Source of the DNA: a virus
IMG/VR virus record: IMGVR_UViG_3300025151_000056
Location: 1-49,092 of that record
Length of the DNA stretch: 49,092 nt
Strand: one strand, 5' to 3'
Under the pieces are notes generated by a model that searched no databases, was not told where the DNA came from, and was given only the letters and a program-made list of their open reading frames with translations. Each line of letters opens with the position of its first letter. The stretch's first letter is position 1. Below are positions 2,121 to 18,566 of this stretch, in pieces. The translations under genes were made by a program, and so were the position numbers.

Positions 2121-2654
2121 ATGATAAAGAAATTTCATCCTAGATTGAAAGAACTATCTCAAGGTAAAGATAGAGTTTCTGTTCAAATTGGTGATGAAAA
2201 ACAAATGAAGGAACTTTGGGATGTGAGTAATCCTGATATGCCTCATAAAATGAGAGATAGGGGCTATCCTATTGATAATTGGTTTGGGGCTATTGTTAAT
2301 GAAAACGGTAAGTCTAGGTTGGTTTCTGTAACAGGCCATGCAGTAAGAAGTGGAAAAGAAGGAAAACAGTTTGCATATGTTGGCGGAAATAAAACACATC
2401 CTGATTATCGGGGTAAGGGATTGATATCAGAAATAAGAAATAAAAATTTAAATCTCATACGTGGTATTCCTAAAGTTGCTAGTTATACTACACAAGGCAG
2501 AAAGAGATTCAAAAGTCCAATGGTTGATGAACCTGAAGAACATGAAGTTATTCCTGATAAAGTTATTCAGGAGATGAAAAGAAGGGTGGAAGAAATTCCT
2601 ATGTCTGATACTTGGGGAGTTTTCAAGAGTTGGAAGGATATTCTAAGGCGATAA
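2121..2654 (+). CDS. GNAT-family N-acetyltransferase
   Basis: This 177-residue protein shows the GNAT acetyl-CoA-binding motif A at about residues 85-105: AYVGGNKTHPDYRGKGLISE contains the R-G-x-G pyrophosphate loop after a beta strand. GNAT enzymes transfer the acetyl group of acetyl-CoA to an amine; the substrate cannot be read from the sequence. The ATG follows the previous stop by 4 bases and the next gene starts 1 base after its stop, so it is co-translated with the large terminase. The extreme C terminus (residues 169-177, KSWKDILRR) carries the [ST]W-x-[DN]-I motif shared with several small proteins up to the scaffold. An acetyltransferase directly before terL is unusual. It might modify a virion protein, the portal or terminase, or a host factor. 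The family call is good; the role is unknown. Confidence 0.78.
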   Translation: MIKKFHPRLKELSQGKDRVSVQIGDEKQMKELWDVSNPDMPHKMRDRGYPIDNWFGAIVNENGKSRLVSVTGHAVRSGKEGKQFAYVGGNKTHPDYRGKGLISEIRNKNLNLIRGIPKVASYTTQGRKRFKSPMVDEPEEHEVIPDKVIQEMKRRVEEIPMSDTWGVFKSWKDILRR

Positions 2655-2655
2655 T

Positions 2656-4092
2656 ATGGAATTAGATAATTTAGATTTTATGTCCTCTATGGATATGGAA
2701 CTATCTAAAACATCTTTTCCATATTTTTTTCAAAATGTGTTGGGTTGGGACTTTGCAACTCATCAACAAGAATGGCATGAATTGATGGGAAAAGGCCAAC
2801 GTAGTGTAATCATATGTTCTAGGGGTCATGGTAAATCCGTATTTATGCACAGTTGGGTAGTTTGGAATTTGATATTTCAAGAGCCACCATATCAAATGCT
2901 ATACATTTCTTCTAACCAAAAGCAGACATTAGTTCACATGAGAGAAATTGATAGATATTTCAATCATCCTGCACTCAAACAATTCAAACCTACTAGGGGT
3001 TGGGCTATTGGAAATATTACATTGACTAACGGTAATCAAATTCTAGAACGTTCCGTTGGTTCTCAGATTCGCGGTCTTCACCCTCAAGAAATTATTATTG
3101 ACGACCCTTTGAAAGAATTTAGTTTAGCAGGAATACAAAGAGTAACTGATTGGTTCTTCGGAGATATGATACCAACTTTGCATCACACTTCCAAACTCAG
3201 GATGATTGGAACACCATTTACTTACACAGATATTTTTGCACAGTTAGAAGAAAATGAAGCATATACTGTAAATAAATATCCATGTTTGAATTCACTCAAT
3301 GAACCCCTTTGGCCTGAACGTTGGGATTATGATGCACTTATGCAAAGAAAGGCTGAAATCGGTTCTCTAAAATTTACAAGAGAATATTTGTGTGTGCCGA
3401 TTTCTACCGGAACTGCTCTTTTCTCACCTGAATCTATTACACAATGTAAAAACAAAGAATATATTTTAAAGTTAGGTAATCGTAAAAATAAAGGCTACAA
3501 ATATTATGTTGGTGTAGACCCTGCAATTTCTACTGATGGAGATTACAACGTAATTACTGTATTAGAAGTAGATGAGAATATGAACAAGGCTATTGTTCAT
3601 GTGGATAGAGCGAAGAATGTAGAGTTTAGAGAAAACATTGAGAAGATTAGATTGATTGGTAGGATATATCAACCCGAAGCAATTTTATTTGAAACAAATA
3701 CCTTTGCTAAATCATTCACACAGGAACTTAGGAACATTTCAGATTTGAATGTTTTAGATTTCAACACGACAAGGAAGAAGAAACAAGAAATAATTTTGAA
3801 TCTGCAAATGAATTTTGAAAATAAAAAAATGATTTTACCTTATGGCGACAATAATAGTAGGGTTCTTACAAATGCTTTGATTGAAGAATTGTCTATGTTT
3901 TCAATCACAGAATCCGGTAAATTTGAGGGTGTAGGAGCACATGATGACTTAGTAATGAGTTTGGCTTTAGCGAATGCTGCAACTAATAGACCGACCGACA
4001 GTTTTTATTTGCTAGATGATATCGGGTTGTTTGATAGTCCCACAACTACTACTAACGTAGTGCCTAACGGATTAGTCGGATTGAACTTCTAG
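2656..4092 (+). CDS. terL: terminase large subunit (ATPase and nuclease)
   Basis: This is the DNA-packaging motor that docks on the portal, pumps genome into the prohead and cuts concatemers. At 478 residues it has normal length. The ATPase domain shows a Walker A-type loop at 54-61 (CSRGHGKS), a Walker B at about 145-151 (EIIIDDP) and a coupling motif at 183-188 (MIGTPF). The RNase H-like nuclease shows the first acidic strand GVDPA (D288), an acidic residue in ILFETN (E346) and the last acidic motif GAHDDLVMSLALAN (D430/D431). All expected catalytic positions are present and there is no intein. The start is ATG, 1 base after the stop of the acetyltransferase gene. It is followed by a nuclease-like gene and then the portal, as expected for a packaging module. 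Confidence 0.96.
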   Translation: MELDNLDFMSSMDMELSKTSFPYFFQNVLGWDFATHQQEWHELMGKGQRSVIICSRGHGKSVFMHSWVVWNLIFQEPPYQMLYISSNQKQTLVHMREIDRYFNHPALKQFKPTRGWAIGNITLTNGNQILERSVGSQIRGLHPQEIIIDDPLKEFSLAGIQRVTDWFFGDMIPTLHHTSKLRMIGTPFTYTDIFAQLEENEAYTVNKYPCLNSLNEPLWPERWDYDALMQRKAEIGSLKFTREYLCVPISTGTALFSPESITQCKNKEYILKLGNRKNKGYKYYVGVDPAISTDGDYNVITVLEVDENMNKAIVHVDRAKNVEFRENIEKIRLIGRIYQPEAILFETNTFAKSFTQELRNISDLNVLDFNTTRKKKQEIILNLQMNFENKKMILPYGDNNSRVLTNALIEELSMFSITESGKFEGVGAHDDLVMSLALANAATNRPTDSFYLLDDIGLFDSPTTTTNVVPNGLVGLNF

Positions 4093-4103
4093 GAGGGTTA
4101 AAG

Positions 4104-5462
4104 TTGGGAGAAAAAGGAGACAAACTCAGGGAAGCAGCCGAGATTGCTGATAGAGTAGAAGATACTGAAACGGAACTTCAAGATAAAATTAATGAAATCA
4201 AAAGAAGTGATGTGTCTCAATGGTTAGTTGGTCAAGGGGTTAAAGACCATTTTGATTTAGAAAAACAATTTGCAAAAGAATTTAATTTATCCCTTACAGA
4301 TTCTAAAAATATACTTTCCTTTGACGTGAAGAAATACGAAATCGAAGGTAAAGACATTCCATCTCTAGTAAAGGAACTACGAAATTATCGAAGGACATTG
4401 AAAGGAGATGACCGAGTAAAAATAACACACTCTATTGAAAACTTAATCAAAGCATATTCAAATCATCTTGATAGTAACATGGATTCAATATATTGGCTAA
4501 AGTCATACAAATCCCCGTTGAAAGAGATGAATTGTAATGAGGATAAGTTGCATAAATTATCATTAATTAAGGATGAAAATACTAGAAGGGAAGTCGTAGA
4601 TTCATTGTGTAAATATTGGGAAGCGAGATTAGATAGAAATAATTTGTCTATTGGTAAAGAGTATGCCTCTTTAACTAAGAAAATGACTAATACAAAAAAA
4701 GGATTTAGTTCCATTGTTAAAAAATTACCTTCATCTTATAGCCCTAAAGAAGAAATTAAAAAGTATATTTTAGATTCTGTTTGTGAAGAACAGGGCATAT
4801 CTGCACGACAAGTGCATGAGAAATTACCTGAGAATCTATTCAAAAAGACTTCACCTAGTATGATTGTTAAGATGGCTAAGAGACAAAACATTACTACTGT
4901 AAATGGTGCATTGTATAAATTTTCAGATGATATAAAGAAAGACATTTACGCTTATACTGCTGCATTCTTAGATAGTGATGGCTACATTACAATGGATAAG
5001 AACTTCAATCCTAGAGTGGGATTGATAGCAACAGGAGATAGAGGTAAGGCTTTCATGTTAGAAATGCAAAAGTCATTAGGCATGGGGCGACTACACTTAG
5101 ACCAAAAATCACCACAGAATACTAAGCCGATAAATCGTTTGAATTTTTATGCTATGGATGATGTACAAGATTTACTAACAAAGTGTAGGCCACATATCAA
5201 ACTCAAAAAGGGAAATGCAGACATTTTATTAGAACTAATCAGAATGAAAAAATCACATAAGAAGGCTGAATGGTACAAAGAAAGGAGAGAGGAACTATTC
5301 AAACTTATGAAGTATGAAAACCATAAGGATGAAGCGAATTATGACTTTGCAAGTTATGGCATTGATTTGGATAATATTTCCAAATATTACGACAACTGTA
5401 AAATGTCGGTTATGGATAGCATAGAACAAGACACAATCATAGCGAAACAGGAGGAAGAATGA
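4104..5462 (+). CDS. LAGLIDADG-type endonuclease-domain protein between terL and portal
   Basis: 452 residues, TTG start behind a strong GGAGG leader. Residues 1-210 are helical and unrecognised. Residues 215-272 look like a winged helix (ISARQVHEK... NGALYKF). Residues 282-383 match a LAGLIDADG homing-endonuclease fold: YTAAFLDSDGY at 284-294 is the motif helix carrying the catalytic acid (D290/D292). It is followed by RVGLIATGDRGKAFMLEMQ and, near the end, IKLKKGNADILLELI, typical of this domain. Only one motif copy is seen, so the protein would act as a dimer. It overlaps the portal start by 4 bases. It could be a free-standing homing nuclease parked at the conserved terL-portal junction, or, as the HNH proteins beside terL do in some phages, a packaging cofactor. 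The long N-terminal part and tight coupling favour a resident function; that is inference. Confidence 0.8.
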   Translation: MGEKGDKLREAAEIADRVEDTETELQDKINEIKRSDVSQWLVGQGVKDHFDLEKQFAKEFNLSLTDSKNILSFDVKKYEIEGKDIPSLVKELRNYRRTLKGDDRVKITHSIENLIKAYSNHLDSNMDSIYWLKSYKSPLKEMNCNEDKLHKLSLIKDENTRREVVDSLCKYWEARLDRNNLSIGKEYASLTKKMTNTKKGFSSIVKKLPSSYSPKEEIKKYILDSVCEEQGISARQVHEKLPENLFKKTSPSMIVKMAKRQNITTVNGALYKFSDDIKKDIYAYTAAFLDSDGYITMDKNFNPRVGLIATGDRGKAFMLEMQKSLGMGRLHLDQKSPQNTKPINRLNFYAMDDVQDLLTKCRPHIKLKKGNADILLELIRMKKSHKKAEWYKERREELFKLMKYENHKDEANYDFASYGIDLDNISKYYDNCKMSVMDSIEQDTIIAKQEEE

Positions 5463-7111
5463 TGGTAGAAGAAAAAAGAACTTTCTCGGTTACTAATTTG
5501 TTTAGGAGAACTACACCTAAACCACAAGACCGAGAAGTGTTCAATGCAGGAATACAAGAGAAGAATACAACATACATGATTACACCCCCGATTATTTACC
5601 ACATGGTAAATCAATCAGTAATTGTAAGGTCGTGTATAACTCAATTGAAACAGGAGATTTTCAGGCGTGGGTATGTTTGGGAAGAAAAGTTCGTTGCTAA
5701 ATGTAACTCTTGTGGAAAAGAACATAGTTCACCGACAGAAGAATGTATTGATTGTGGTTCTACTGATTTAAGGAAGGCTGACCCTAAGCAACTAAAATAT
5801 GCTCACAATTTACTAGGCGGTAGAATAAATAAATCTGAGCAGATGTTTATTGATGTTCTAAAGGAACTAGAAGATGATTTGAATATCATGGATGATGCTT
5901 ATCTCGTTATGGTTAAGGAGTATTTCTTAGATTCTAACAACATGATTAGAATGCACAGAATAAAGGAGATATATCGTGGCGACCCTGTAACAATGCACAT
6001 TTATTCTGATGAATTAGGTGAAAGAGGTAAAGAAGGCTACACTTGTTTGAGACACCGAGATTTTATTTCTAAATCTCAATCAGATACTTGTGATTCTTGC
6101 AACGGAGAATTATATCCTGTTCATTATGTAAATAGAGTGAATGGTGTAGAGCAATATTTCATAGAAGGAGAAGTATTACATTTCAGCAAATATTCTCCTA
6201 GTAGATTGTATGGTTTGTCTCCAATACTTACACTTTGGAATCATGTTACTACCTTGATAGCAATGGAGAACTATGTTAATTCATCATATACTAAAGCGAG
6301 AATGCCTAGAGGATTACTTGCAGTTCAAACTAGAAATATTGATTCGATGAAATCATTTTGGCGTGGAGTCAAAGAAAAAATTGAACAAGACCCTCACTTT
6401 ATTCCTGTAATGGGTATTGAATCAGAAGGTGGTAAAGGTTCAATTGAATGGGTTAAATTCATGGATAGCCTAAAGGAAATGGATTACATTTCAGTAAAAG
6501 ATGATTTGAGGGATAGGATTTCAGCATTTTATGGTGTAAGTAAAATTTTCATGGCGGATAATTCTGCTAGTGGTGGATTGAATAATGAAGGTATGCAGGT
6601 CTTAGTTACTAATAGAGCAGTAGAAATGGCTCAAACAATTTGGAATAATTATGTGTTCCCATTCATTACAGAAGAATTTGGAATAACTGATTGGTGTTTG
6701 AAATTACCACCATCGGAAGAAGAAGATGAAATTGCAGTATTAAGAAAGAGAGAGATTGAAGTTAATATTGCGGCCTCAATTAAGAATTTAGGATTTGAAG
6801 TAGATATGGATGATGAAGGTAGATTTACTTACAAGAAACCTGAACCAAAACCCGAAGAAATGGGTACAGAAAGTGAAGAAAGTGGTGGAGATGCTGCATC
6901 TACTGACCCATTTGCAGGAACAAATATTGATGCTTCTCAATTGGGACAACTACAAGAACAGGCTCTTACAGGCTCTAAACCACAGGAGAACCCTCCTGCC
7001 ACTAGAAACAAACCTAGCATGAGTACAGGGCCGGATAAAAGATTTAGTGGATTACCCGAAGAAGCAGGAAATCAAAACGTAGATAGAAGAACAGAAAGGA
7101 GAGTTGGATGA
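5459..7111 (+). CDS. portal protein with two zinc-ribbon insertions
   Basis: 550 residues, dodecameric portal at the capsid vertex through which DNA is packaged. Family signatures are the stem/wing segments around RMPRGLLAVQTRNIDSMKSF and DRISAFYGVSKIFMADNS followed by an Asn/Gly-rich loop and the helix EGMQVLVTNRAVEMAQTIW. Unusually, two zinc-ribbon knuckle pairs lie in the N-terminal half: C82-x2-C85...C96-x2-C99, and C196-x2-H199...C211-x2-C214. The C-terminal 80 residues are low-complexity, rich in Glu, Pro and Gly, ending in a basic tail. The ATG at 5459 overlaps the previous stop and has GGAGG about 8 bases upstream; ATG at 5462 is an alternative. The next gene starts 1 base after its stop. 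Confidence 0.92.
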   Translation: MMVEEKRTFSVTNLFRRTTPKPQDREVFNAGIQEKNTTYMITPPIIYHMVNQSVIVRSCITQLKQEIFRRGYVWEEKFVAKCNSCGKEHSSPTEECIDCGSTDLRKADPKQLKYAHNLLGGRINKSEQMFIDVLKELEDDLNIMDDAYLVMVKEYFLDSNNMIRMHRIKEIYRGDPVTMHIYSDELGERGKEGYTCLRHRDFISKSQSDTCDSCNGELYPVHYVNRVNGVEQYFIEGEVLHFSKYSPSRLYGLSPILTLWNHVTTLIAMENYVNSSYTKARMPRGLLAVQTRNIDSMKSFWRGVKEKIEQDPHFIPVMGIESEGGKGSIEWVKFMDSLKEMDYISVKDDLRDRISAFYGVSKIFMADNSASGGLNNEGMQVLVTNRAVEMAQTIWNNYVFPFITEEFGITDWCLKLPPSEEEDEIAVLRKREIEVNIAASIKNLGFEVDMDDEGRFTYKKPEPKPEEMGTESEESGGDAASTDPFAGTNIDASQLGQLQEQALTGSKPQENPPATRNKPSMSTGPDKRFSGLPEEAGNQNVDRRTERRVG

Positions 7112-7112
7112 T

Positions 7113-7349
7113 ATGACTTGGGAAAATATAGTAAAGAAACCATTTATTTATGGTGATGATAAACTACCGAATGAAGAAATGAAAGCGTTTCTTAACGATG
7201 TCGAAACAGTTCTTTCTAAACATAGAAGAAGTGATGATGCAGAATTAGTAGATTTAATTGATAGATTAGAAGATTTCTTACAACTAGGTGGGCCAAGCGG
7301 TACTAACTTAAATCTTAAAGATAGGATGAAAAGAATACAAGGAAAGTGA
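7113..7349 (+). CDS. small head-operon protein with N-terminal MTWENI tag
   Basis: About 78 residues. I chose ATG at 7113, one base after the portal stop, over an in-frame TTG at 7104, which is too close to its GGAG. With this start the protein begins MTWENIVKK, the same motif that opens the next gene and that recurs at protein ends elsewhere in this block. The rest is a charged helical body with a GGPSGTN turn before a basic C terminus. No family recognised. A small virion or assembly protein is likely from position alone. Confidence 0.75.
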   Translation: MTWENIVKKPFIYGDDKLPNEEMKAFLNDVETVLSKHRRSDDAELVDLIDRLEDFLQLGGPSGTNLNLKDRMKRIQGK

Positions 7350-7354
7350 TTAGA

Positions 7355-7591
7355 ATGACTTGGGAAAATATAATTAAACAAGCAGATTGTAAAGTAAAAA
7401 TTTGTGATGCTATTACTTGTATGTATAATGCTAATAAGCGTTGTACTCTAGATGAAATAACAATTAACTCAAAAGGTAAATGTGATTATTTTAGAGTTAG
7501 AAAGGCAGGTAACGTAGGGGCTAATTTAGGCTCTAGAGGATTAATTGATAGAGCAAAAAGAAATCTACAAGAAGAAAAAAGAACGAGGTGA
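7355..7591 (+). CDS. DUF1540-like cysteine-rich small protein with N-terminal MTWENI tag
   Basis: About 78 residues. The body has the spacing C-x4-C-x4-C-x7-C, then ITINSKGKC, which is the DUF1540 pattern (CxVxxC-N-rich-C-A/LxxIxI...C), a small presumed metal-binding domain of unknown function known from Firmicutes. ATG at 7355 is preferred over the GTG at 7346, because it starts the protein as MTWENIIKQ, matching the neighbouring gene exactly at MTWENI. The leader is AAAGTGATTAGA. The C terminus is basic. A zinc-binding virion protein is plausible; function unknown. The tagged N terminus and DUF1540 body look like separate modules. Confidence 0.75.
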   Translation: MTWENIIKQADCKVKICDAITCMYNANKRCTLDEITINSKGKCDYFRVRKAGNVGANLGSRGLIDRAKRNLQEEKRTR

Positions 7592-7596
7592 ATAAT

Positions 7597-7821
7597 TTGA
7601 GTGAAGAAGGAGTTAGAGAATTAGAAAGAAAACTAGCAGACGCTAGGGCTAAGGAATATGCAGAAAGAAGAAATGAAGTTACAGTAAGTAGAGACTATTC
7701 TTTTGGTGGAGTAGACCCAACAACAACTGTTGAAAAGAAGATACCAAATTCGGCTGATATTCCTGATGCGATTCTTCTACCTAAGAAAAGAAAACAACGC
7801 AAAGAAAATATTCCATTCTAG
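7597..7821 (+). CDS. small charged protein, unknown
   Basis: About 74 residues from TTG at 7597, which has GAGGTG six bases upstream (the GTG inside that leader, at 7588, is the alternative). It has an N-terminal charged helix (EEGVRELERKLADARAKEYAERRN) then a disordered-looking middle and a very basic end (KKRKQRKEN). No family recognised. It is coupled to the preceding gene and followed after 8 bases by the large helical protein. Confidence 0.65.
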   Translation: MSEEGVRELERKLADARAKEYAERRNEVTVSRDYSFGGVDPTTTVEKKIPNSADIPDAILLPKKRKQRKENIPF

Positions 7822-7829
7822 GTGATGTA

Positions 7830-10037
7830 ATGTTACTGAAATCTTCCGCTTATCCTATGTTTGAAGGAGCAGCAATGGGAGAAGAAGAAAAGGAAAAATT
7901 GTATGAAACACTAGACAAAAATAAAGAGTTGATATATTCTTTATTGTTTGGTAAAAATGAAAAGGACAAAGAAGAAAAAAAACATCTCAATCTTAGTTAT
8001 ATTGAAGATGGTGGAACTGACGTAAGAGATATTTTTAGATTTATAGACTCAACATCTACAGAAAGAAAAAAATTTATTTCTGCTAGTAAAAATTTGATTA
8101 AGTTTCTAGAATACATGGATAATTTTGAAAGAAAGAATCTACAAGAAAATATTGCTAATATAGAAAAGGGTATTGAAACTGCTCCTAAATATGAAGATTT
8201 TAAAATTAAAGGTAAAGCAGGTCGGGCTAAAACTGTAAGAATACAATCTACATATAGAGAAAAACTTTCTATATTAAATGAAGAAATTGTAAAATTCAGG
8301 CAAGCAGTTAAATTCTTTGAAAATCCACAATTACCAAAAGGTGCAGAAAAGGCAAAAGAACAAAAAGAACGCTTAGCCGATGCAGAAAAAGAATTCGATA
8401 GACTATTAGGAATAGCAACAAAAAAATTAGATAATAAAATCACGTTTGATTATAACGGCGAAAGTAAGACGGCTCGTTTACAAGATGCTAAGAAATTACT
8501 TTCAAAGGATAAAACCACTCTATCTAAACTAAAACCCAATGATAAAATAAAGAAATTGGTTATGTTTTTCAAAAAACTGATACAAATTATTTCTAGAGAA
8601 GAAGATACTGATGATACAAAAGAACTTCTTACTAGTATGTTAGAGGCATACGAGGAAAACGATTTCACAGTTTATGAAAATATGTTGGAAAAGTTAGATT
8701 CAAAACGATTCTTCAATAAAGAAAACATTGGAATGTTTGTTAAGTTTTTCAAGAATCCTAAAGGTTCTAGGCTCAAAAGAGATATCAAAGAAGCATTTTT
8801 TAAAGAAGGTTCTACTGATATAGATGAAGAAAAAGTAGAAAATTTCAAACAGATATTAAATGAAAGTCAATTGATATCTGTTGCCGACACACAAGATGTA
8901 AAGCAAAAATTTGAGCAATTGATTTCTTCTAGTCAAGAAGAATACATTAACAAACTACAACAGGCTATGAAAAACCCTAAAAAATTCTATGATATAATGG
9001 GACGGGACATGAAAGTTGTAGGTGAAAAAGGAAAAGGTGCTAGAATACGTGGAACTAAAAATGTTCGATGGAAAGAAACTATGGAAATACAGATGTATGA
9101 ACTTGCAGATGATTTGCTAGATATGGCAGATATGATAGAAGAAAATAGGAATGAGAAACCTGATTACGAATTAGATAAAAAGGAAATAGAATTTGTAAAA
9201 GAACAAATAGAAGCATTTGAGTTTATGATAAATGTTCTATATACGATAGATTATGATGTTAGAGATTATACAAAAATATCTGAGACACTTGAAGTTGTAG
9301 GGTATTTACTAAATGATGAAGATTCTGAAATTGATATTGAAACATATGAACCAAAAAAGGTAGCACTACCTAAACCCAAAACTACAGATAAAGAAATGAC
9401 TCAAATAAATATGTTGAAAAGACTCAAGAGAGAAATTTTACGTGAATTACCTAACCCCATATCTAAACCTAGTAAAATGCAAAGTAGATTCAATACACTT
9501 GATGAAAAAACTAATGCTAATTATCTAAATGAAGTCCTTGAAAGAATTAAAGAAGATGGTGATTTTAAGAAAAAACAAATTGAAATGGAAAGAAAAATCA
9601 ATAAAATAAAAACACAATTGAATAAGTTAGTTGATAAAGATGGGTCTATAAAACCTGAAAATAAAAAAGAGGTAGAAAAACTAAGGAAACAAATTAAACT
9701 AATTTCTAAAAAGTTCTATGATTCTTATGCTAGAGGATTTGGTAATGCTATCAAAGAGGTAAAAGTTGATATTAAAAACAACATAGAAGAAAGAAAAAGA
9801 TATCTTTCATCAGCAGATGGTAAAAGTAAAATTAACGCATTGAATAACAGACTAAATGAAATTAAAGAAATAGAAGAACCGGAAAGGTTTGAAAGTAAAT
9901 ATGCTGAATTCATAGATTTCATACAAGAATTGAAAGACATTGATAAAGACGTAGTAACTAGTTTAGACGAAATATCTAACGAGTTAGATAGTGGTGAACT
10001 TACTCCACAAGAACTGTTAGAGAGATTAGGTGGCTAA
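7830..10037 (+). CDS. 735-residue Lys/Glu-rich helical protein, unknown
   Basis: ATG at 7830 with an ideal GGTGATGTA leader immediately after the previous stop. The protein is almost all charged helix, with many Lys/Glu/Ile heptad-like stretches, suggesting long coiled coils (for example residues about 565-670). A short Gly-rich element (GEKGKGARIRGTK) lies near residue 400. There is no signal peptide, membrane segment, Cys cluster or recognisable enzyme motif. Lysine is mostly encoded AAA, unlike the capsid gene, suggesting lower expression. Together with the proteins at 2-2116 and 19958-22381 it makes three oversized charged proteins scattered through the head genes. It might be an internal virion, ejection or structural rod protein; inference only. 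Confidence 0.75.
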   Translation: MLLKSSAYPMFEGAAMGEEEKEKLYETLDKNKELIYSLLFGKNEKDKEEKKHLNLSYIEDGGTDVRDIFRFIDSTSTERKKFISASKNLIKFLEYMDNFERKNLQENIANIEKGIETAPKYEDFKIKGKAGRAKTVRIQSTYREKLSILNEEIVKFRQAVKFFENPQLPKGAEKAKEQKERLADAEKEFDRLLGIATKKLDNKITFDYNGESKTARLQDAKKLLSKDKTTLSKLKPNDKIKKLVMFFKKLIQIISREEDTDDTKELLTSMLEAYEENDFTVYENMLEKLDSKRFFNKENIGMFVKFFKNPKGSRLKRDIKEAFFKEGSTDIDEEKVENFKQILNESQLISVADTQDVKQKFEQLISSSQEEYINKLQQAMKNPKKFYDIMGRDMKVVGEKGKGARIRGTKNVRWKETMEIQMYELADDLLDMADMIEENRNEKPDYELDKKEIEFVKEQIEAFEFMINVLYTIDYDVRDYTKISETLEVVGYLLNDEDSEIDIETYEPKKVALPKPKTTDKEMTQINMLKRLKREILRELPNPISKPSKMQSRFNTLDEKTNANYLNEVLERIKEDGDFKKKQIEMERKINKIKTQLNKLVDKDGSIKPENKKEVEKLRKQIKLISKKFYDSYARGFGNAIKEVKVDIKNNIEERKRYLSSADGKSKINALNNRLNEIKEIEEPERFESKYAEFIDFIQELKDIDKDVVTSLDEISNELDSGELTPQELLERLGG

Positions 10038-10089
10038 CGATAATTATATCATATGAGTAGTAGTGCGAATTGTTGAAGGGGGATTGTGT

Positions 10090-10419
10090 ATGAGTTGGCA
10101 GGATATATTAAAAGCCGATTCTATGATAGACAAACTCAGTTCTAAAGACAAAAAGAGAGTAAAGAAATTACTGCAAAAAACACAACCTACGCAGTATTTT
10201 GGTCAAGATATGACCCAATTAGGTGATTTGATTTCTATGATGGAAACCTTAGATGTAGTTAAGGATGATTCAAAGTTAGCAAAGAAAATGAAGACATTCG
10301 GCGAGCAGAATTTAGACATACTTGCATCTGCGGCTGAATTAAGAAAAGATTACGAAACTCTATACTATCAATTAAGAAAGGTAGTATATCCTAAGAGTAA
10401 AAAGGAGGAAAAAGAATGA
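10090..10419 (+). CDS. small helical protein with N-terminal MSWQDI tag
   Basis: About 109 residues. ATG at 10090 is chosen because it sits about 6 bases after a purine-rich GGGGGATT leader and opens with MSWQDILKA, the recurring terminal motif; an upstream GTG at 10063 would add nine residues. The body is all helix, Lys/Asp-rich, ending YPKSKKEEKE. The 52-base gap upstream holds an A+T-rich TTATAT string (10044-10049) that could be an archaeal TATA element, though this is weak. It overlaps the next gene by 4 bases (ATGA). No family recognised. Confidence 0.75.
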   Translation: MSWQDILKADSMIDKLSSKDKKRVKKLLQKTQPTQYFGQDMTQLGDLISMMETLDVVKDDSKLAKKMKTFGEQNLDILASAAELRKDYETLYYQLRKVVYPKSKKEEKE

Positions 10420-10643
10420 CGGAAGAAAATAATGAAGTATTGATGTTGATGAAAGAACTTGTAGATAGAGTAAAGGCTCTAGAACAACAAGTATATGATA
10501 AAGACAACTTACTAATGAAGTCGGGTATGGTTGTAGTAGATAGTCCTAGACCAAGTATGGGAGTTAGTGCTACGCCTACAACTGAATCAGTTAGTAATAT
10601 GTCGTGGGACGACATACATAAGATGGTAGAAAACATTAGGTGA
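10416..10643 (+). CDS. small coiled-coil protein with C-terminal MSWDDIH tag
   Basis: 75 residues, ATG overlapping the previous stop, with AAGGAGG upstream. The N-terminal 30 residues form a short coiled coil (MLMKELVDRVKALEQQVYDK). A Pro/Ser/Thr linker follows, and the last 14 residues are MSWDDIHKMVENIR. That tail is nearly the same as the last 14 residues of the scaffold-protease 4 kb downstream (MSWGDIHNVVRGFN), including an identical NMSW start. This arrangement of a trimer- or dimer-forming helix plus a flexible linker plus a terminal tag looks like an adaptor or scaffold helper. Role inferred. Confidence 0.75.
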   Translation: MTEENNEVLMLMKELVDRVKALEQQVYDKDNLLMKSGMVVVDSPRPSMGVSATPTTESVSNMSWDDIHKMVENIR

Positions 10644-10647
10644 TTAA

Positions 10648-10845
10648 ATGAGCGAAGAAAAATTAGTTATTGAAGCAATATCAAAAGCAAAAGAAATTTT
10701 GCAAGAAGCAGGGCATTTGGGATTATTAGAATTAGATGAACCTTCACAGGGAGAAGATGAAAAACTATCTCGACCACCTAAGAAATCAAAAGAAGTTAAA
10801 CTAGGAAATCCTCAAACTCCTGAACCTAAAGGCTACGAAGGGTGA
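10648..10845 (+). CDS. small acidic protein, unknown
   Basis: 65 residues, ATG with AGGTGATT upstream, overlapping nothing but only 4 bases after the preceding stop. A short helix (KLVIEAISKAKEILQEAGH) is followed by a disordered Pro/Lys/Glu tail ending GYEG. It lacks the terminal SW motif. No family recognised. The ligase gene follows after 6 bases. Confidence 0.65.
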   Translation: MSEEKLVIEAISKAKEILQEAGHLGLLELDEPSQGEDEKLSRPPKKSKEVKLGNPQTPEPKGYEG

Positions 10846-10851
10846 TTATTT

Positions 10852-13380
10852 GTGCCTGTATCGGGTTTAGCCTTTGAGAAGAAAACCGATACTGTATCTA
10901 AAGAAATACTAGATTTGTTTGAGAAAACTAGAGTAGCCTATCTTTCGGCTAGAGAAGACCCGAAAGAATATGAGAAGAAGTGGAAATCAATTGTTAAAGA
11001 AATCCGTGAGAAATTTGACGACATTGATAATGTAACTTCTGAATTAAAAAAAGTGATATCTGAAAAAGAACTATTCGCTGATGCAGTTTTAGACCCAAAA
11101 TCTTCTCAGGCAAAGACATTATTTTCAGCCATCAAAAAACTTAGATTTGAATCTGAGTTAGTATCTGACCCGTTCTCTAAACAATTAGGAGAACAGGTAA
11201 TAGAGGAATTAACAGAAAATGATTCTGTATTGGTTGCATTTATTCATTATGCCTTACGTTCACACAGTAATGTTATTCCTGATAAAGCATACAAAAAATT
11301 CAAACTAAAACCTGATAATATCACTCAAGGTATAAGTGGTTTAGATTTGAAAAAGGATGATTTGTCTTTGTATGTGATTGAACATTATGGCGGAGACAAG
11401 AAAGATACAAGACGAGTTGAATCTAGAATTAAAAAGGGTATGAAATTATTAGAGGAAATTTTTGTTGCTGCTTATGGTGAAGAAGAATGGTCTAAACTAG
11501 TTGCATTGGATATCAAAAAAGAAGATAAAGAAGATTCCATTGATTTCATAATCCCAAATAAACCAATGTATAGAATTTTTGAAATTAACGATATGAAAGA
11601 AATTTTAGGGTTTAGTGGAGAATATGTTGTTCAAGAAAAGTATGATGGAATGCGTATTCAGATACACAAAATAAACGGTAAAATTACTATTTATTCATAT
11701 AATGAGAAGGACATTACAGATAAATGTCCCGAACAAGTTAAAGCAATGGAAAAGAAACAATTTGAAGATTGTATTTTGGATGCAGAATTAATTTTATTCA
11801 AAGGGGATGAAGCATTACATCGAGCAGATACAATTTCACACGTCTTCAAGAAAGAAACAGAAGGAACTCTAAGAGCGCACGTGTTTGATATAATGCGACA
11901 TGAAAATAAGAATTTAACAGATGAACCTTTGCGAGAAAGATTGAATATTTTACTCTATCAATTCAGTCCACATTCAAGTGAAGATTTAGCATTCCCTTCA
12001 AAGAAAGATACTAGGGTTGCCGATTCTCTTAAAGAAGTAGAAGAATATTCTAAACTTATAATGGATATGCCTACTTCTGAAGGAGTAGTGATAAAAGACC
12101 ATGAATCTACTTATTTCATAGGTAAAAAGAAAAATCCAAAATGGATTAAGTGGAAGAAATTCATAGACCTTGATGTAATTGTATTGAATAAATCCAAAAC
12201 AAATAGTAACCTTTATTCTTACACTATGGGTATAGGGCCATTAAATGCAGAAGATTCTAGAAATTATAAGACTAAAGAATTAGATGGAAAAGAATACTTG
12301 CCGATAGGTAAAGCATTGAATACTAAAGAATCAGTAGAGATTGGTTCTATCATTCGTGTAAAGGTAGATGAAGTTAAGAAAAGTAAAAGCGGATTCAGTC
12401 TATATTCGGCAAAGGTAATTGAAATACCCGAAGTAACTCAGACAGATACATTACAGGCATTAGAACAACTATCTACTAAAACTAAAAAATCATTACAACA
12501 AATTGCTGAATTAGGTGAGGCATTTAAGGTAGCAGCAGGTTTGAAGAAATATACCATAACTGATGATATTCATGGAACTGCTGAAATTATTCTAAAACAA
12601 GATTTGGATGGTTTTACTGTTTATGGATTCAAGGGAGATTCCTTGATGGAAAAGAATGCTCTATACAACATTGATGTTTGGAAAGAACAAGTAACTGAAA
12701 TCACAAAAACAAAACGTTCTGAATTAAGATTGGCTATTAGAAACTTTATTTTTGAACAAAAAGAAAATGAAGAAATAGAATTCTCAGAAATTGTAGCGTT
12801 TGTTGCTTCAAAACACCCTGATGACTATGAACAGTTATTCGATAATGAGCAAAGAAAATTAATGAATTGGTTGAAAAAACAAGATGATTTGATTTACATT
12901 AATCCTAATAAATTCCAAATCAATGCTGATATTCTAGAAAAAGATAAAGATATCATAAAAAAAGATACTCCTGAAAGTGGAAATTTCAATGTTTTTATTT
13001 CAGATAATGATATCGAATTATTAATTGAAGCAGCAAATGAAAGAATGGTTTGGAGAATAGATTTAGAAGATGCAGAAGACGTTTACGAATTATTTGGTAA
13101 ATCTGCTAAATATCCTGCAAAGGTTGGTAAGACTATTCGTAAGGGTAAAAAAATAGACTCCGGTAAAATTATTTTTGGTGTGCAAAAAGACGGCTACCAT
13201 GAATACAAATTAGAAGGAGAAAAGTTTGAAACTAGAATACATTTCAGGGTTGTTCCTATTGAAGAACAAAATAGATGGATAGCATGGACAGGTAAAAAAC
13301 AAGAAATGTTAGACCCCGAAGATGATGAAGGCGTATGGATTATTTCGGAAGACAAATACGCAGATTTAGAATTTCCGTAA
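10852..13380 (+). CDS. ATP-dependent DNA ligase with long C-terminal extension
   Basis: 842 residues, GTG start after GGTGATTATTT. It seals nicks using ATP through a covalent lysyl-AMP. Visible motifs: I, E262-K263-YDGMR with adenylated K263; LDAELI at 309-314; III, HVFDIM at 343-348; IV, EGVVIK at 410-415; V, PKWIKWKK at 429-436. An OB-fold follows to about 525. The N-terminal region (1-235) is a shortened version of the helical DNA-binding domain of archaeal/eukaryal ligases. Residues 530-842 are extra: a linker helix, a winged-helix-like part (622-690) and a final beta-rich domain (715-842) with YHEYKLEGEKFETRIHFRVV, which distantly recalls phosphoesterase-type domains of LigD; I would not assign it. 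Normal archaeal ligases are about 550-600 residues. Its place among head genes rather than replication genes is odd. Confidence 0.94.
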   Translation: MPVSGLAFEKKTDTVSKEILDLFEKTRVAYLSAREDPKEYEKKWKSIVKEIREKFDDIDNVTSELKKVISEKELFADAVLDPKSSQAKTLFSAIKKLRFESELVSDPFSKQLGEQVIEELTENDSVLVAFIHYALRSHSNVIPDKAYKKFKLKPDNITQGISGLDLKKDDLSLYVIEHYGGDKKDTRRVESRIKKGMKLLEEIFVAAYGEEEWSKLVALDIKKEDKEDSIDFIIPNKPMYRIFEINDMKEILGFSGEYVVQEKYDGMRIQIHKINGKITIYSYNEKDITDKCPEQVKAMEKKQFEDCILDAELILFKGDEALHRADTISHVFKKETEGTLRAHVFDIMRHENKNLTDEPLRERLNILLYQFSPHSSEDLAFPSKKDTRVADSLKEVEEYSKLIMDMPTSEGVVIKDHESTYFIGKKKNPKWIKWKKFIDLDVIVLNKSKTNSNLYSYTMGIGPLNAEDSRNYKTKELDGKEYLPIGKALNTKESVEIGSIIRVKVDEVKKSKSGFSLYSAKVIEIPEVTQTDTLQALEQLSTKTKKSLQQIAELGEAFKVAAGLKKYTITDDIHGTAEIILKQDLDGFTVYGFKGDSLMEKNALYNIDVWKEQVTEITKTKRSELRLAIRNFIFEQKENEEIEFSEIVAFVASKHPDDYEQLFDNEQRKLMNWLKKQDDLIYINPNKFQINADILEKDKDIIKKDTPESGNFNVFISDNDIELLIEAANERMVWRIDLEDAEDVYELFGKSAKYPAKVGKTIRKGKKIDSGKIIFGVQKDGYHEYKLEGEKFETRIHFRVVPIEEQNRWIAWTGKKQEMLDPEDDEGVWIISEDKYADLEFP

Positions 13381-13419
13381 ACCGAGTAAGTTAAATAGTA
13401 AAAGTTGAGGGTGGTAGTA

Positions 13420-14616
13420 GTGTCGCAAATTTTGTTAAAGGGAGGTGAAGTTAGTAATTTCAATATACTCAAGTCTGATGATTTGGTTATAGGCGGCTAC
13501 GCATCTATTGAAATGGTAGATAAGCAAAACGATTTGATTACATTAGAAGCCCTAAATGAAGCAGTAGAAAAATTCATGGATGGTAAAAAATACAGAAATG
13601 TAATGTCTAATCACTCAAATGTTCAAGTTGGTGAAGTAATAAATAATTACCGAGACAAGAATGGAGTTCTGCATAAAACCAAAGTAGATGATGTTGGATT
13701 TTATGTTGTTATCAAATTAAGAGACGACATAGAAAAAGCAAAAGAAATTTCTAGAGGAATTAGAAAAGGAACATTGCGCTCTTTTAGTATAGGAGGACAA
13801 GCCATTTCTAAGAAATCAAGAAATTCAGATGAGTACGGCCAATATAACGAGATTGATAGATTAGAGTTACATGAAGTTACTATATGCGAAAAAGGCATTA
13901 ATCCCGAAGCAAAATTCGATATTTTAAAACAAGAAAGAGGTGAGAAAATTTCAGAAGAACTAAGTGCTGCGATTTCCGAGTTGAATGACCTAATGAAACA
14001 AGTCAATTCTTTACATAAAGAAGAAGAAGAAATGATGGATGATGATATGGGTAAAGAAGACGAAGAAGTTGAGGCTATGTATATGAAAGAAGACGAAATG
14101 ATGGACAAGGGAGACGATGAAGAATTGAAAGCCCTTGCCGATGGCGGTGATGAAACCGATGCAAATGATAAAAACGCAGGAGAGTTAGTTGTAGATAATG
14201 GAAATGCAAAAACACAACCTGCTACAAAGCATTTGGCAAAGGGTGTAGAAAATACAGAATTCTCTACATTAGATTTGTCGCCTGAGAATGTGGAGAAGGC
14301 ATATGCTCAATTCCGAGCAGAACAATTGGAAAAGATTGCATATGATTCTCTTTCAAAGCAATTTGAGGAAAGATTTGCTGCTGAACTAGAAGTTAAGAAG
14401 GCTGATGCTGAAAAGGCTGAATATGATGCACAAACAGAAGTTGCAACTCTAAGACAAGAGTTTGCTGAACTACGAAAGTCATTGACTGAAACTAACGAAA
14501 TTGCAAAATCTGAGGGTGTATCTCTAACATTGCCCGAAGGATTCCCAACATCTGCTGATGAAATTCAGAATATGTCGTGGGGAGATATACACAATGTTGT
14601 TAGAGGATTTAATTGA
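13420..14616 (+). CDS. prohead protease (S78/XkdF-like) fused to scaffold domain
   Basis: About 398 residues. GTG at 13420 is chosen because GAGGGTGGT lies just upstream; TTG at 13405 is possible. Residues 18-170 form the protease: VIGGYASIEMVDKQNDLI, then the catalytic-His region VMSNHSN (H65), the nucleophile region RSFSIGG (S121/S123) and ELHEVTI, all typical of XkdF/HK97-type prohead proteases. Residues 175-398 are an acidic helical scaffold with a Met/Glu/Asp-rich stretch (about 200-240) and coiled coil (about 290-360). The last 14 residues, MSWGDIHNVVRGFN, match the tail of the small protein at 10416-10643. The protease cleaves scaffold and itself during maturation. The major capsid gene follows after 11 bases. 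A TTAAATA string at 13391-13397 might be a TATA element for this gene. Confidence 0.88.
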   Translation: MSQILLKGGEVSNFNILKSDDLVIGGYASIEMVDKQNDLITLEALNEAVEKFMDGKKYRNVMSNHSNVQVGEVINNYRDKNGVLHKTKVDDVGFYVVIKLRDDIEKAKEISRGIRKGTLRSFSIGGQAISKKSRNSDEYGQYNEIDRLELHEVTICEKGINPEAKFDILKQERGEKISEELSAAISELNDLMKQVNSLHKEEEEMMDDDMGKEDEEVEAMYMKEDEMMDKGDDEELKALADGGDETDANDKNAGELVVDNGNAKTQPATKHLAKGVENTEFSTLDLSPENVEKAYAQFRAEQLEKIAYDSLSKQFEERFAAELEVKKADAEKAEYDAQTEVATLRQEFAELRKSLTETNEIAKSEGVSLTLPEGFPTSADEIQNMSWGDIHNVVRGFN

Positions 14617-14627
14617 GGTGAACTAAG

Positions 14628-15986
14628 ATGAGTGGATATATTAGAACAATGAAAGATTTAGAGGCTGCTTCCTATGGAATGGGCGGTTCAGCCGGAAATG
14701 CTTTGCTAAAGGCAGCAGGTGTTGTTGGTGGTTTTGGAACTCCACACGATGCTGCATCAAATCCATTTAGTGCTGCTAGTAATTTGGGCGATTTGTATAA
14801 CGTTCTTTACGGGCAGAAAGTTTGGTCAATGCTAAATCAAGAGGTTAATCCTCTAGCAATGATAGCAAAGAGGCCATACACTTCTAGTGGTTGGAGAGTT
14901 TTGAAGTCAAGACCTGAAGGTGGTTCTGCTTCTTCCTTTACTATTGGAACAGGAGCGGCGGGTTCTGCTTCTCCTGCTGCTGATAAAATTGGTGGTGTTG
15001 GTGAAAACGCATCTTTAGGAACAGGAAATGATATTCCTGCAATTGCTCCTGAATATGAAAAACTATACGTAAGTCCAAAGACTGTTGCTCACTTGTTTGA
15101 GTTTTCAGAATTGGGTATGGAGTTGGCTGCAATTGATGATGGTGTTGGAGATATTCGTGCAATTATCCGTGAAGATATGGGTAAGCACCATGCAGAAACA
15201 CAAAGTAAGATGCTAGTTATGCCTCTAGAAAAGTATGATGATGGAACTGCAACAGGTATTGAGAAGAACTACACTTCACTATTGAAGATTGTATCTTCTG
15301 CTGCTGAAATTGCATCCATGTATAACGCTAACTTACTAAACACAGGTGCTAACAACGGAGATAACTCCGCAGTTGTCGCAGATGTTGTAAGACTATTCGG
15401 AACTTCCCGAACAGTAGGCGTTTCATCTAACTCCGCTACCGGAACTGCTTCTTTCCTAGATGCAGAAGTTGATTACGGAACAGATTATTCAGATGGTGCT
15501 AGAGTTCTAACTCTAAGCCTACTAAATGATATGATTCGCAGACTCCGACAAAATGGTGGTAGTCCAAAGGTTATTCTAACAGGATATGATACTATTCAAC
15601 ATATCTCAGACCTTCTACAAAGTCAAGAGCGATTTATGGATAGAAAGGAAGTAGTTCCTTCCCATAATGGTGTTCGTGGAGTAAAGGGTTCAGAAGTTGG
15701 ATTTAGAGTAGCAACATACTACGATATCCCAATTATCCCAACAAAGGATATGCCTTCTACCGGAAATGAAACAACAAATCCATTGAGCGATATCCTAATT
15801 CTAGATACCGACCACCTATGGCTATCTGTAATGAAACCAACCCAATACTTTGAGGATGGTATTACTAACGGAAACCCATTCGGTGTTGGAAAACTCGGAA
15901 ATCAGGGTATGTACCGAACAATGGGTGAAACAGGTTGTTCATTCTTTAAGGGACAAGGAAAGATTACTAACCTAAAGAGCGCATGA
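14628..15986 (+). CDS. major capsid protein, HK97 fold
   Basis: 452 residues, ATG with GAGGTGA leader. It follows the protease-scaffold, as usual. The N-arm is Gly/Ala-rich; the P-domain-like C-terminal half has VILTGYDTIQHISDLLQSQ, a variable loop with GVRGVKG, then ATYYDIPIIPTKDMP and ILILDTDHLWL, the order seen in HK97-type capsid proteins. Codon choice is distinct: by eye lysine is about 16 AAG to 6 AAA and leucine favours CTA, whereas the neighbouring large charged proteins use mostly AAA and TTA. This fits very high expression. There is no long helical delta domain at its N terminus, consistent with scaffolding being supplied by the protease fusion. Confidence 0.92.
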   Translation: MSGYIRTMKDLEAASYGMGGSAGNALLKAAGVVGGFGTPHDAASNPFSAASNLGDLYNVLYGQKVWSMLNQEVNPLAMIAKRPYTSSGWRVLKSRPEGGSASSFTIGTGAAGSASPAADKIGGVGENASLGTGNDIPAIAPEYEKLYVSPKTVAHLFEFSELGMELAAIDDGVGDIRAIIREDMGKHHAETQSKMLVMPLEKYDDGTATGIEKNYTSLLKIVSSAAEIASMYNANLLNTGANNGDNSAVVADVVRLFGTSRTVGVSSNSATGTASFLDAEVDYGTDYSDGARVLTLSLLNDMIRRLRQNGGSPKVILTGYDTIQHISDLLQSQERFMDRKEVVPSHNGVRGVKGSEVGFRVATYYDIPIIPTKDMPSTGNETTNPLSDILILDTDHLWLSVMKPTQYFEDGITNGNPFGVGKLGNQGMYRTMGETGCSFFKGQGKITNLKSA

Positions 15987-17894: not shown

Positions 17895-18566
17895 ATGTCT
17901 ATAATGGCAGGTTTCGCAATATTAGTTGTTGAGGCTACAAATAAATTATATCAAAGATTACATTCAATAAATTTCGGTGTCTATGGAGCGTCAATGGCCG
18001 GAAAAACTACATTACATAATCAACTTAGAACAAGAGGTGAAGTTCCCACAATCCAAGAAAGAACGGTTGGTAGAAAACGAGCCACTAGAAAATATGTAAA
18101 ATTAGATGGAGATGCACACACAATCAAAACCGCAGATATAGGAGGACAGTCAGTTTATTGGGGTGAATGGATAGAAGACATGAAAAGAAGACGTACTAAA
18201 TATGTAATATTCATGTTAGATGATAGACATTTATCGAAACATTATGATATAGAACAACAATTATGTTGGACTTTTTTAGTTGATACAATATGTTCAAATG
18301 AATGGTATTATAATGGAAAAAGAGTAAAAAAGAAACAATCAGATTATCCGATTGCAGTAGGGCTATGGGCTAACAAATATGATTTGTGGAAAGACAAATA
18401 TGATTATGAGGGAGATATGGCTAACCATCCAATATTTGAATCATTCAAAACAGGTATGCAAAAATTAAACGATAAAGGAATTCCATGTTACAAATATGTT
18501 GTAAGTGCAAAATCAGATTCAGAAATGGTGTATAGAGGAATATTAACAATGATAAAAGACTACTAG
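17895..18566 (+). CDS. Arf-like small GTPase
   Basis: 223 residues, ATG with GGTGATTAA leader. G1/P-loop GASMAGKTT at 31-39; likely G2 threonine in PTIQ at 51-54; G3 DIGGQ at 81-85; G4 WANKYDLW at 158-165; G5 SAKS at 204-207. The DxGGQ followed by a Trp-containing helix, PTI-type switch 1 and ANKxDL are the Arf/Sar/Arl pattern rather than that of translation factors. Residues 1-25 are hydrophobic to amphipathic (MSIMAGFAILVVEATNKLYQ), like the membrane-binding N-terminal helix of Arf proteins. An insertion around 134-150 (YYNGKRVKKKQSD) is basic. All nucleotide-binding residues seem intact, so it is probably an active GTP-dependent switch at a membrane. It sits directly after two small membrane-protein genes. 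Virus role unknown. Confidence 0.86.
   Translation: MSIMAGFAILVVEATNKLYQRLHSINFGVYGASMAGKTTLHNQLRTRGEVPTIQERTVGRKRATRKYVKLDGDAHTIKTADIGGQSVYWGEWIEDMKRRRTKYVIFMLDDRHLSKHYDIEQQLCWTFLVDTICSNEWYYNGKRVKKKQSDYPIAVGLWANKYDLWKDKYDYEGDMANHPIFESFKTGMQKLNDKGIPCYKYVVSAKSDSEMVYRGILTMIKDY

Follow-up and report, generated by a model that had tools for sequence, protein, structure and literature searches.

The IMG/VR virus fragment IMGVR_UViG_3300025151_000056 (49 kb; this whole stretch of DNA is referred to as the window) carries genes for a terminase, a portal, a prohead protease and an HK97-fold capsid, and, judged from its sequence, is a fragment of a magrovirus, that is, of one of the tailed viruses assigned in the literature to marine group II (Poseidoniales, MGII) archaea (PMC10160649). 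Six proteins of the window bear at one end a short tryptophan-containing motif, here called the tag, which a first-pass annotation of the DNA had proposed to be a capsid-targeting signal. All six ends were verified at the coordinates given below (MTWENIVKK, MTWENIIKQ and MSWQDILKA at N termini; MSWDDIHKMVENIR, MSWGDIHNVVRGFN and SWKDILRR at C termini), and a search of all six frames with [ST]W.[DNE][IVL] returned just one further match (48152), in a 40-codon stop-to-stop frame outside the called genes. The single shared motif of the annotation resolved into two related flavours: a K-type tag (SWxDILK), found on putative cargo and mostly N-terminal, and an H-type tag (xWx[DE]IH, or more fully [MLIV]-x-W-x-[DE]-[IVAL]-[HN]), found at the end of the scaffold-protease and of a small protein with a coiled coil. 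K-type and H-type ends agree in their first six positions, M-S-W-x-[DE]-I.

The genes described in this paragraph all lie on the plus strand. An acetyltransferase-like protein of 177 amino acids (aa; 2121-2654), encoded just upstream of the terminase large subunit TerL (2656-4092; PHROG 38, E = 2e-56), ends in the K-type tag SWKDILRR (2628-2651), and a C-terminal W..[ILV]L[KR] is retained in its orthologues. Beyond the portal gene (5459-7111; PHROG 18178, E = 7e-66), like TerL an untagged landmark, two 78-aa proteins start with K-type tags: MTWENIVK (7113-7136, ATG at 7113) on a protein (7113-7349) for which no homologue was found among the relatives described below, and MTWENIIK (7355-7378, ATG at 7355) on a DUF1540 zinc-binding-like protein (7355-7591; PF07561, E = 1.3e-5) that has tagged homologues in three relatives (L092, L062 and L095), with the order of the body shuffled. 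The K-type tag MSWQDILK (10090-10113, ATG at 10090) opens a magrovirus-conserved helical protein of 109 aa (10090-10419; 56 homologues, of which those listed start with MSWQDILK or a variant). The 75-aa coiled-coil protein (10416-10643) ends in the H-type tag MSWDDIHKMVENIR (10599-10640) and has 50 homologues, those listed having a similar terminal W-x-x-[IV]-[HNRS]. The other H-type tag, MSWGDIHNVVRGFN (14572-14613), closes the scaffold-protease, a prohead protease (S78; 13405-14616; PF04586, E = 5e-10) with a long C-terminal scaffold-like region. The HK97-fold major capsid protein (MCP; 14628-15986; PHROG 24667, E = 7e-25) is the presumed tag receptor.

Given that the motif was defined on the window, its relatives provide a fair test. 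Close relatives of the capsid protein, for which haloviruses are the closest named relatives (~25% identity), occur on hundreds of marine contigs; the longer ones fetched measure 84-103 kb, in agreement with the published description of magroviruses as marine genomes of ~90-100 kb (PMC10160649). These relatives are metagenomic virus genomes, some of them fragments, with overlapping loci, and their genes were called mechanically by a simple script, so that some starts are wrong; they yielded 3,460 complete proteins (~808,000 residues) that are non-redundant at roughly 90%, the redundancy removal being approximate. In this set the strict motif M[ST]W.[DEN][IVL][LIVM]K opens 367 proteins, where residue composition would predict 0.005. 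Without the Met requirement, the strict K-type motif occurs a further 3 times at C termini and 28 times internally (1.1 expected anywhere), and a loose form of the motif is N-terminal in 392 cases, C-terminal in 56 and internal in 92. The motif, seen by the annotation at protein ends, is occasionally internal. The N-terminal consensus is M-S(84%)-W-[EKQF]-D(64%)/N/E-I(83%)-L(70%)-K(94%), with no conservation beyond it. In the viral collection, a DNA pattern for M-S-W-[EK]-D-I-L-K matched over 120 stretches, and a control pattern with Ser and Trp swapped matched none; of the loci checked, all but about six were magroviral. The sole matches in a scan of a genome collection were three magrovirus contigs binned in bacterial metagenome-assembled genomes (MAGs). 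Contigs labelled as MAGs of Maricaulis and Altibacter (L222, L223 and L224) are magrovirus sequence, pointing to binning errors in reference genomes.

The H-type tag ends every complete scaffold-protease listed among ~75 divergent viruses with MCP identities of 45-100%; in a few scaffold ends, Ala replaces the His/Asn. The K-type tag can change ends within one homologous family (alignment A1), being C-terminal in most members and N-terminal in three (L197, L319 and L329); in L298 and L329 of this family, an added zinc-ribbon sequence follows the tag. Acetyltransferase-like proteins encoded just before TerL have a terminal W..[ILM][LM][KR]. Among 59 distinct proteins in this slot, simple patterns place the tag at the N end in 17 and at the C end in 13; in 29 they detect no tag, and several of these have a looser terminal version.

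The bodies behind the tag are diverse. A relaxed form of the tag found 654 carriers (592 N-terminal, 43 C-terminal and 19 internal), which BLAST sorted into 344 families, 240 of which had a single member; as BLAST misses remote kinship, this number is a maximum. When 140 and 145 family representatives were aligned, essentially only the tag (MSWxDILK) proved conserved. A search of the residues after the tag found no common processing motif, only cysteine patterns and common helix-like patterns. The annotation's view that the carriers have unrelated bodies extends far beyond the window; its GNAT assignment for the 2121-2654 protein is weak (PF13527, E = 0.022, below the cut-off). Among the tagged bodies that can be recognised are a PAP2 phosphatase (L247), a 2H-type phosphodiesterase (L256), DUF1540, zinc ribbons and acetyltransferase-like proteins, and one protein (L243) has SAM-lyase-like and GNAT-like regions with the tag internal, the SAM-lyase match lying just under the curated cut-off. 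A payload suspected by eye to be ADP-ribosyltransferase-like (L270:12095) had no Pfam support and is not claimed, and a PADLOC search gave no match to defence proteins. Conservation is lower in tagged bodies than in untagged proteins of comparable length: among proteins of 70-250 aa, 41% of the tagged and 26% of the untagged have no homologue in the set.

We determined where tagged genes lie in 12 near-complete genomes, which have 3-16 N-tagged genes each. The tag is tied to the head-gene region and absent from the downstream tail genes: the strand with the capsid gene has an N-terminal tag on 95 of its 783 genes versus 1 of 674 on the opposite strand, the interval from 30 kb before to 10 kb after the capsid gene holds all 95 among its 574 genes, and none of the 169 genes in the further downstream (tail) region is N-tagged (p = 4e-12). 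A record of 184,733 bp (L237; IMGVR_UViG_3300021958_000021), roughly double the length of the remaining magrovirus records retrieved, has ~8 tagged genes in a row ahead of a TerL of magrovirus type, and is either a large magrovirus or an assembly artefact.

Other genes of the window are noted in their own right. Upstream of TerL (14-2116) lies a member of a family of ~850-aa proteins, 700 aa of it in the window, that in 66 relatives has its own strongly conserved C-terminal end, VY.[IVL]KANFR or a similar sequence. An ATP-dependent DNA ligase of 842 aa (10852-13380; 60 homologues in relatives) is encoded within the head module, between the coiled-coil and scaffold-protease genes, and a small GTPase-like protein (17895-18566; MMR_HSR1, E = 4e-4, just under the cut-off) between the head and tail genes.

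The capsid and scaffold were modelled with AlphaFold as a monomer in which the scaffold tail was read through into the capsid protein, with stops entered as Gly (a modelling device that makes no claim of read-through). With 42 sequences the mean predicted local distance difference test (pLDDT) score was 45; with 98 sequences the capsid core folded and the mean was 69. The scaffold C-terminal element was predicted to be a helix (50-60, low confidence). The capsid of this model, which is that of a relative, matched HK97-fold capsids and encapsulins in Foldseek. A hydrophobic-hydrophobic-Lys element is conserved as LLK in the MCP N-arm, as ILK where the protease domain begins and as LMK-SG in the coiled-coil protein, and may, as a candidate drawn from sequence comparison, be a prohead protease site. 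Since the cargo tag also ends in ILK, cleavage after ILK might release the cargo, but Lys/Arg is retained in C-terminal tags too.

The closest parallel in organization is phage T4, in which a ten-residue N-terminal tag, the capsid targeting sequence (CTS), is found on diverse injected internal proteins (PMC3012670, PMC9026906), the targeting sequence being the sole common part of the diverse T-even set (PMC3012670). The T4 proteins IPI, IPII and IPIII resemble the magrovirus carriers in sharing about ten N-terminal residues and being otherwise unrelated, fast-evolving small proteins. The T4 CTS starts MKTYQEFIAEA, and its targeting residues are 4 and 7 (PMC9026906); this spacing of an aromatic and a hydrophobic residue at +3 equals that of W3 and I6, the most conserved positions of the magrovirus tag, and by eye both follow [ST]-aromatic-x-acidic-hydrophobic-hydrophobic (TYQEFI in T4, SWxDIL here). 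The CTS and MSWxDILK have no sequence identity to speak of, and differ in virus lineage and host domain; the likeness is one of pattern and not of homology. Unlike the T4 tag, the magrovirus tag is also C-terminal (where it would be functional too), has a variant on the scaffold and spans hundreds of families; sufficiency and cleavage, proven for the T4 CTS, are putative in the magrovirus tag. The scaffold of phage P22 has a helix-turn-helix at its C-terminus that docks on the capsid interior, binding the N-arm of the coat protein (PMC9965877), and that loads cargo fused to it (PMC9962691), much as proposed for the magrovirus tag; in P22 engineers put that end on the cargo, whereas in magroviruses natural putative cargo has a similar end of about eight residues. 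The first 30 N-terminal residues of DarB suffice to put this anti-restriction protein in the capsid of phage P1, and the authors found no consensus among Dar protein ends (PMC9024508), in contrast to the strong consensus of the magrovirus tag across hundreds of proteins. The likeness to encapsulins lies in the terminal position of short cargo peptides and in the HK97 fold of the shell, matched by the magrovirus capsid model. Encapsulin cargo peptides are typically C-terminal and serve cellular compartments, whereas the magrovirus system is viral. In the halovirus HVTV-1, the tag is absent from the head proteins. Three HVTV-1 proteins of the head region (L343) share VY[IV]...[DQ]EAPE, a module that lies close to the N terminus of gp113 and gp115 and close to the C terminus of gp116 and is possibly a haloviral counterpart of the tag. 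Text searches of the open-access literature found no earlier description of the tag or of such a motif in these viruses.

We consider it probable that the motif is a modular procapsid-targeting tag, a reading favoured by the large excess of N-terminal tags over expectation, the 344 BLAST families, the lower conservation of tagged bodies, the clustering in the head region, the scaffold copy, the swapping of ends and the T4 and P22 parallels. A shared start could instead be a by-product, either of a conserved translation-start sequence or of a single family whose bodies have diverged beyond recognition. Codon bias near the start fits such a by-product (Ser-2 is AGT in 96% of tags, and GAA and AAA are strongly preferred), but untagged genes likewise use AGT most often for Ser at the second position (294 of 471 cases), and positions 6-8 include several synonymous codons at near-background use for Leu and Lys while the residues stay constant. 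This codon variety, together with the C-terminal copies, speaks against a signal that acts purely in the DNA or at the start of translation; with the end swapping within one family and the recognisably different folds of carriers, the C-terminal copies already contradict either form of by-product, which we regard as very improbable. Short linear motifs at protein termini often recruit a host factor or steer proteins to a cell site, such as the replication site, a membrane or degradation, and a role of this kind would have no link to the capsid. It is unlikely here, given that 95 of the 96 N-tagged genes of the 12 genomes lie on the head-gene strand, with none in the downstream tail region, and that the scaffold, a protein of the procapsid only, bears a version of the tag. 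The proximity of carrier genes to TerL and portal, and the frequent tagging of the slot before TerL, would also suit docking on the portal, terminase or another head-assembly platform by proteins that stay unpackaged, such as chaperones or packaging factors; however, the fast turnover, the enzyme payloads and the scaffold copy suit cargo better than a fixed machine, and we hold this explanation to be equally doubtful.

Within a procapsid-targeting role, the terminal H-type tag of the scaffold, predicted to be helical, would most likely dock, while the shell assembles, on the inner face of the HK97-fold capsid protein, in the manner of the P22 scaffold C-terminus. The K-type tag, usually after the start Met and sometimes C-terminal, would admit cargo to the procapsid, either through the docking site that the scaffold uses or through association with the scaffold core. 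The 109-aa and coiled-coil proteins, a conserved tagged pair, are probably core components, and the remaining tagged set, with its fast turnover and its enzymes, probably enters the virion and is delivered along with the DNA, as are the internal proteins of T4. The broader proposition, that with one scaffold-mimicking tag at either end the virus loads its virion with a modular, quickly changing set of enzymes and effectors destined for marine group II archaea, seems to us somewhat favoured. A rival to docking on the capsid is a binding of the cargo tag to the scaffold core or the protease, the scaffold end serving in capsid binding or self-assembly and packaging being T4-like. The internal proteins of T4 are targeted to the core and purify together with the scaffold gp22 (PMC9026906), the K-type and H-type tags differ at +5/+6, and no docking was seen on the capsid monomer model, all in keeping with this alternative; the M-S-W-x-[DE]-I common to cargo and scaffold ends is most simply explained by one receptor, and we rate scaffold-core binding as a reasonable possibility that falls short of probable.

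Several observations weigh against loading through a shared tag. Two of the eight positions distinguish the scaffold tag from the cargo tag, and an N-terminal H-type tag is found on no cargo, so that a receptor shared by both flavours is not assured. The T4 core proteins gp21, gp22, gp67, gp68 and gp23 are without the T4 motif; sharing of the tag with the scaffold is thus not general, being absent in the best-known parallel. Most payloads have no recognisable domain, and tagged proteins show no difference in net charge from their untagged neighbours, the basic charge typical of T4 internal proteins not being found. The read-through monomer model with 98 sequences left the tag at a pLDDT of ~50, and no magrovirus isolate or virion proteome was found. 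What stands of the targeting interpretation put forward in the first-pass annotation is a real, protein-level, terminal and modular signal that is linked to head genes, has a scaffold variant and follows T4 spacing; AlphaFold gave no confident docking.

Capsid-targeting tags as such are already known; what is new here is their occurrence in archaeal viruses, on hundreds of families, at either end and with a core motif common with the scaffold. If the interpretation is correct, this would be, to our knowledge, the first such tag system in archaeal viruses and much wider than that of T4, and cargo loading would be linked to the end by which the scaffold itself binds the capsid. A ready-made short peptide would then be at hand for loading proteins into an archaeal-virus-like shell. 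Eight residues would predict which of the unknown proteins of these abundant marine archaeal viruses travel in the virion, and hundreds of such proteins could be labelled as virion cargo and become candidates for counter-defence or host takeover.

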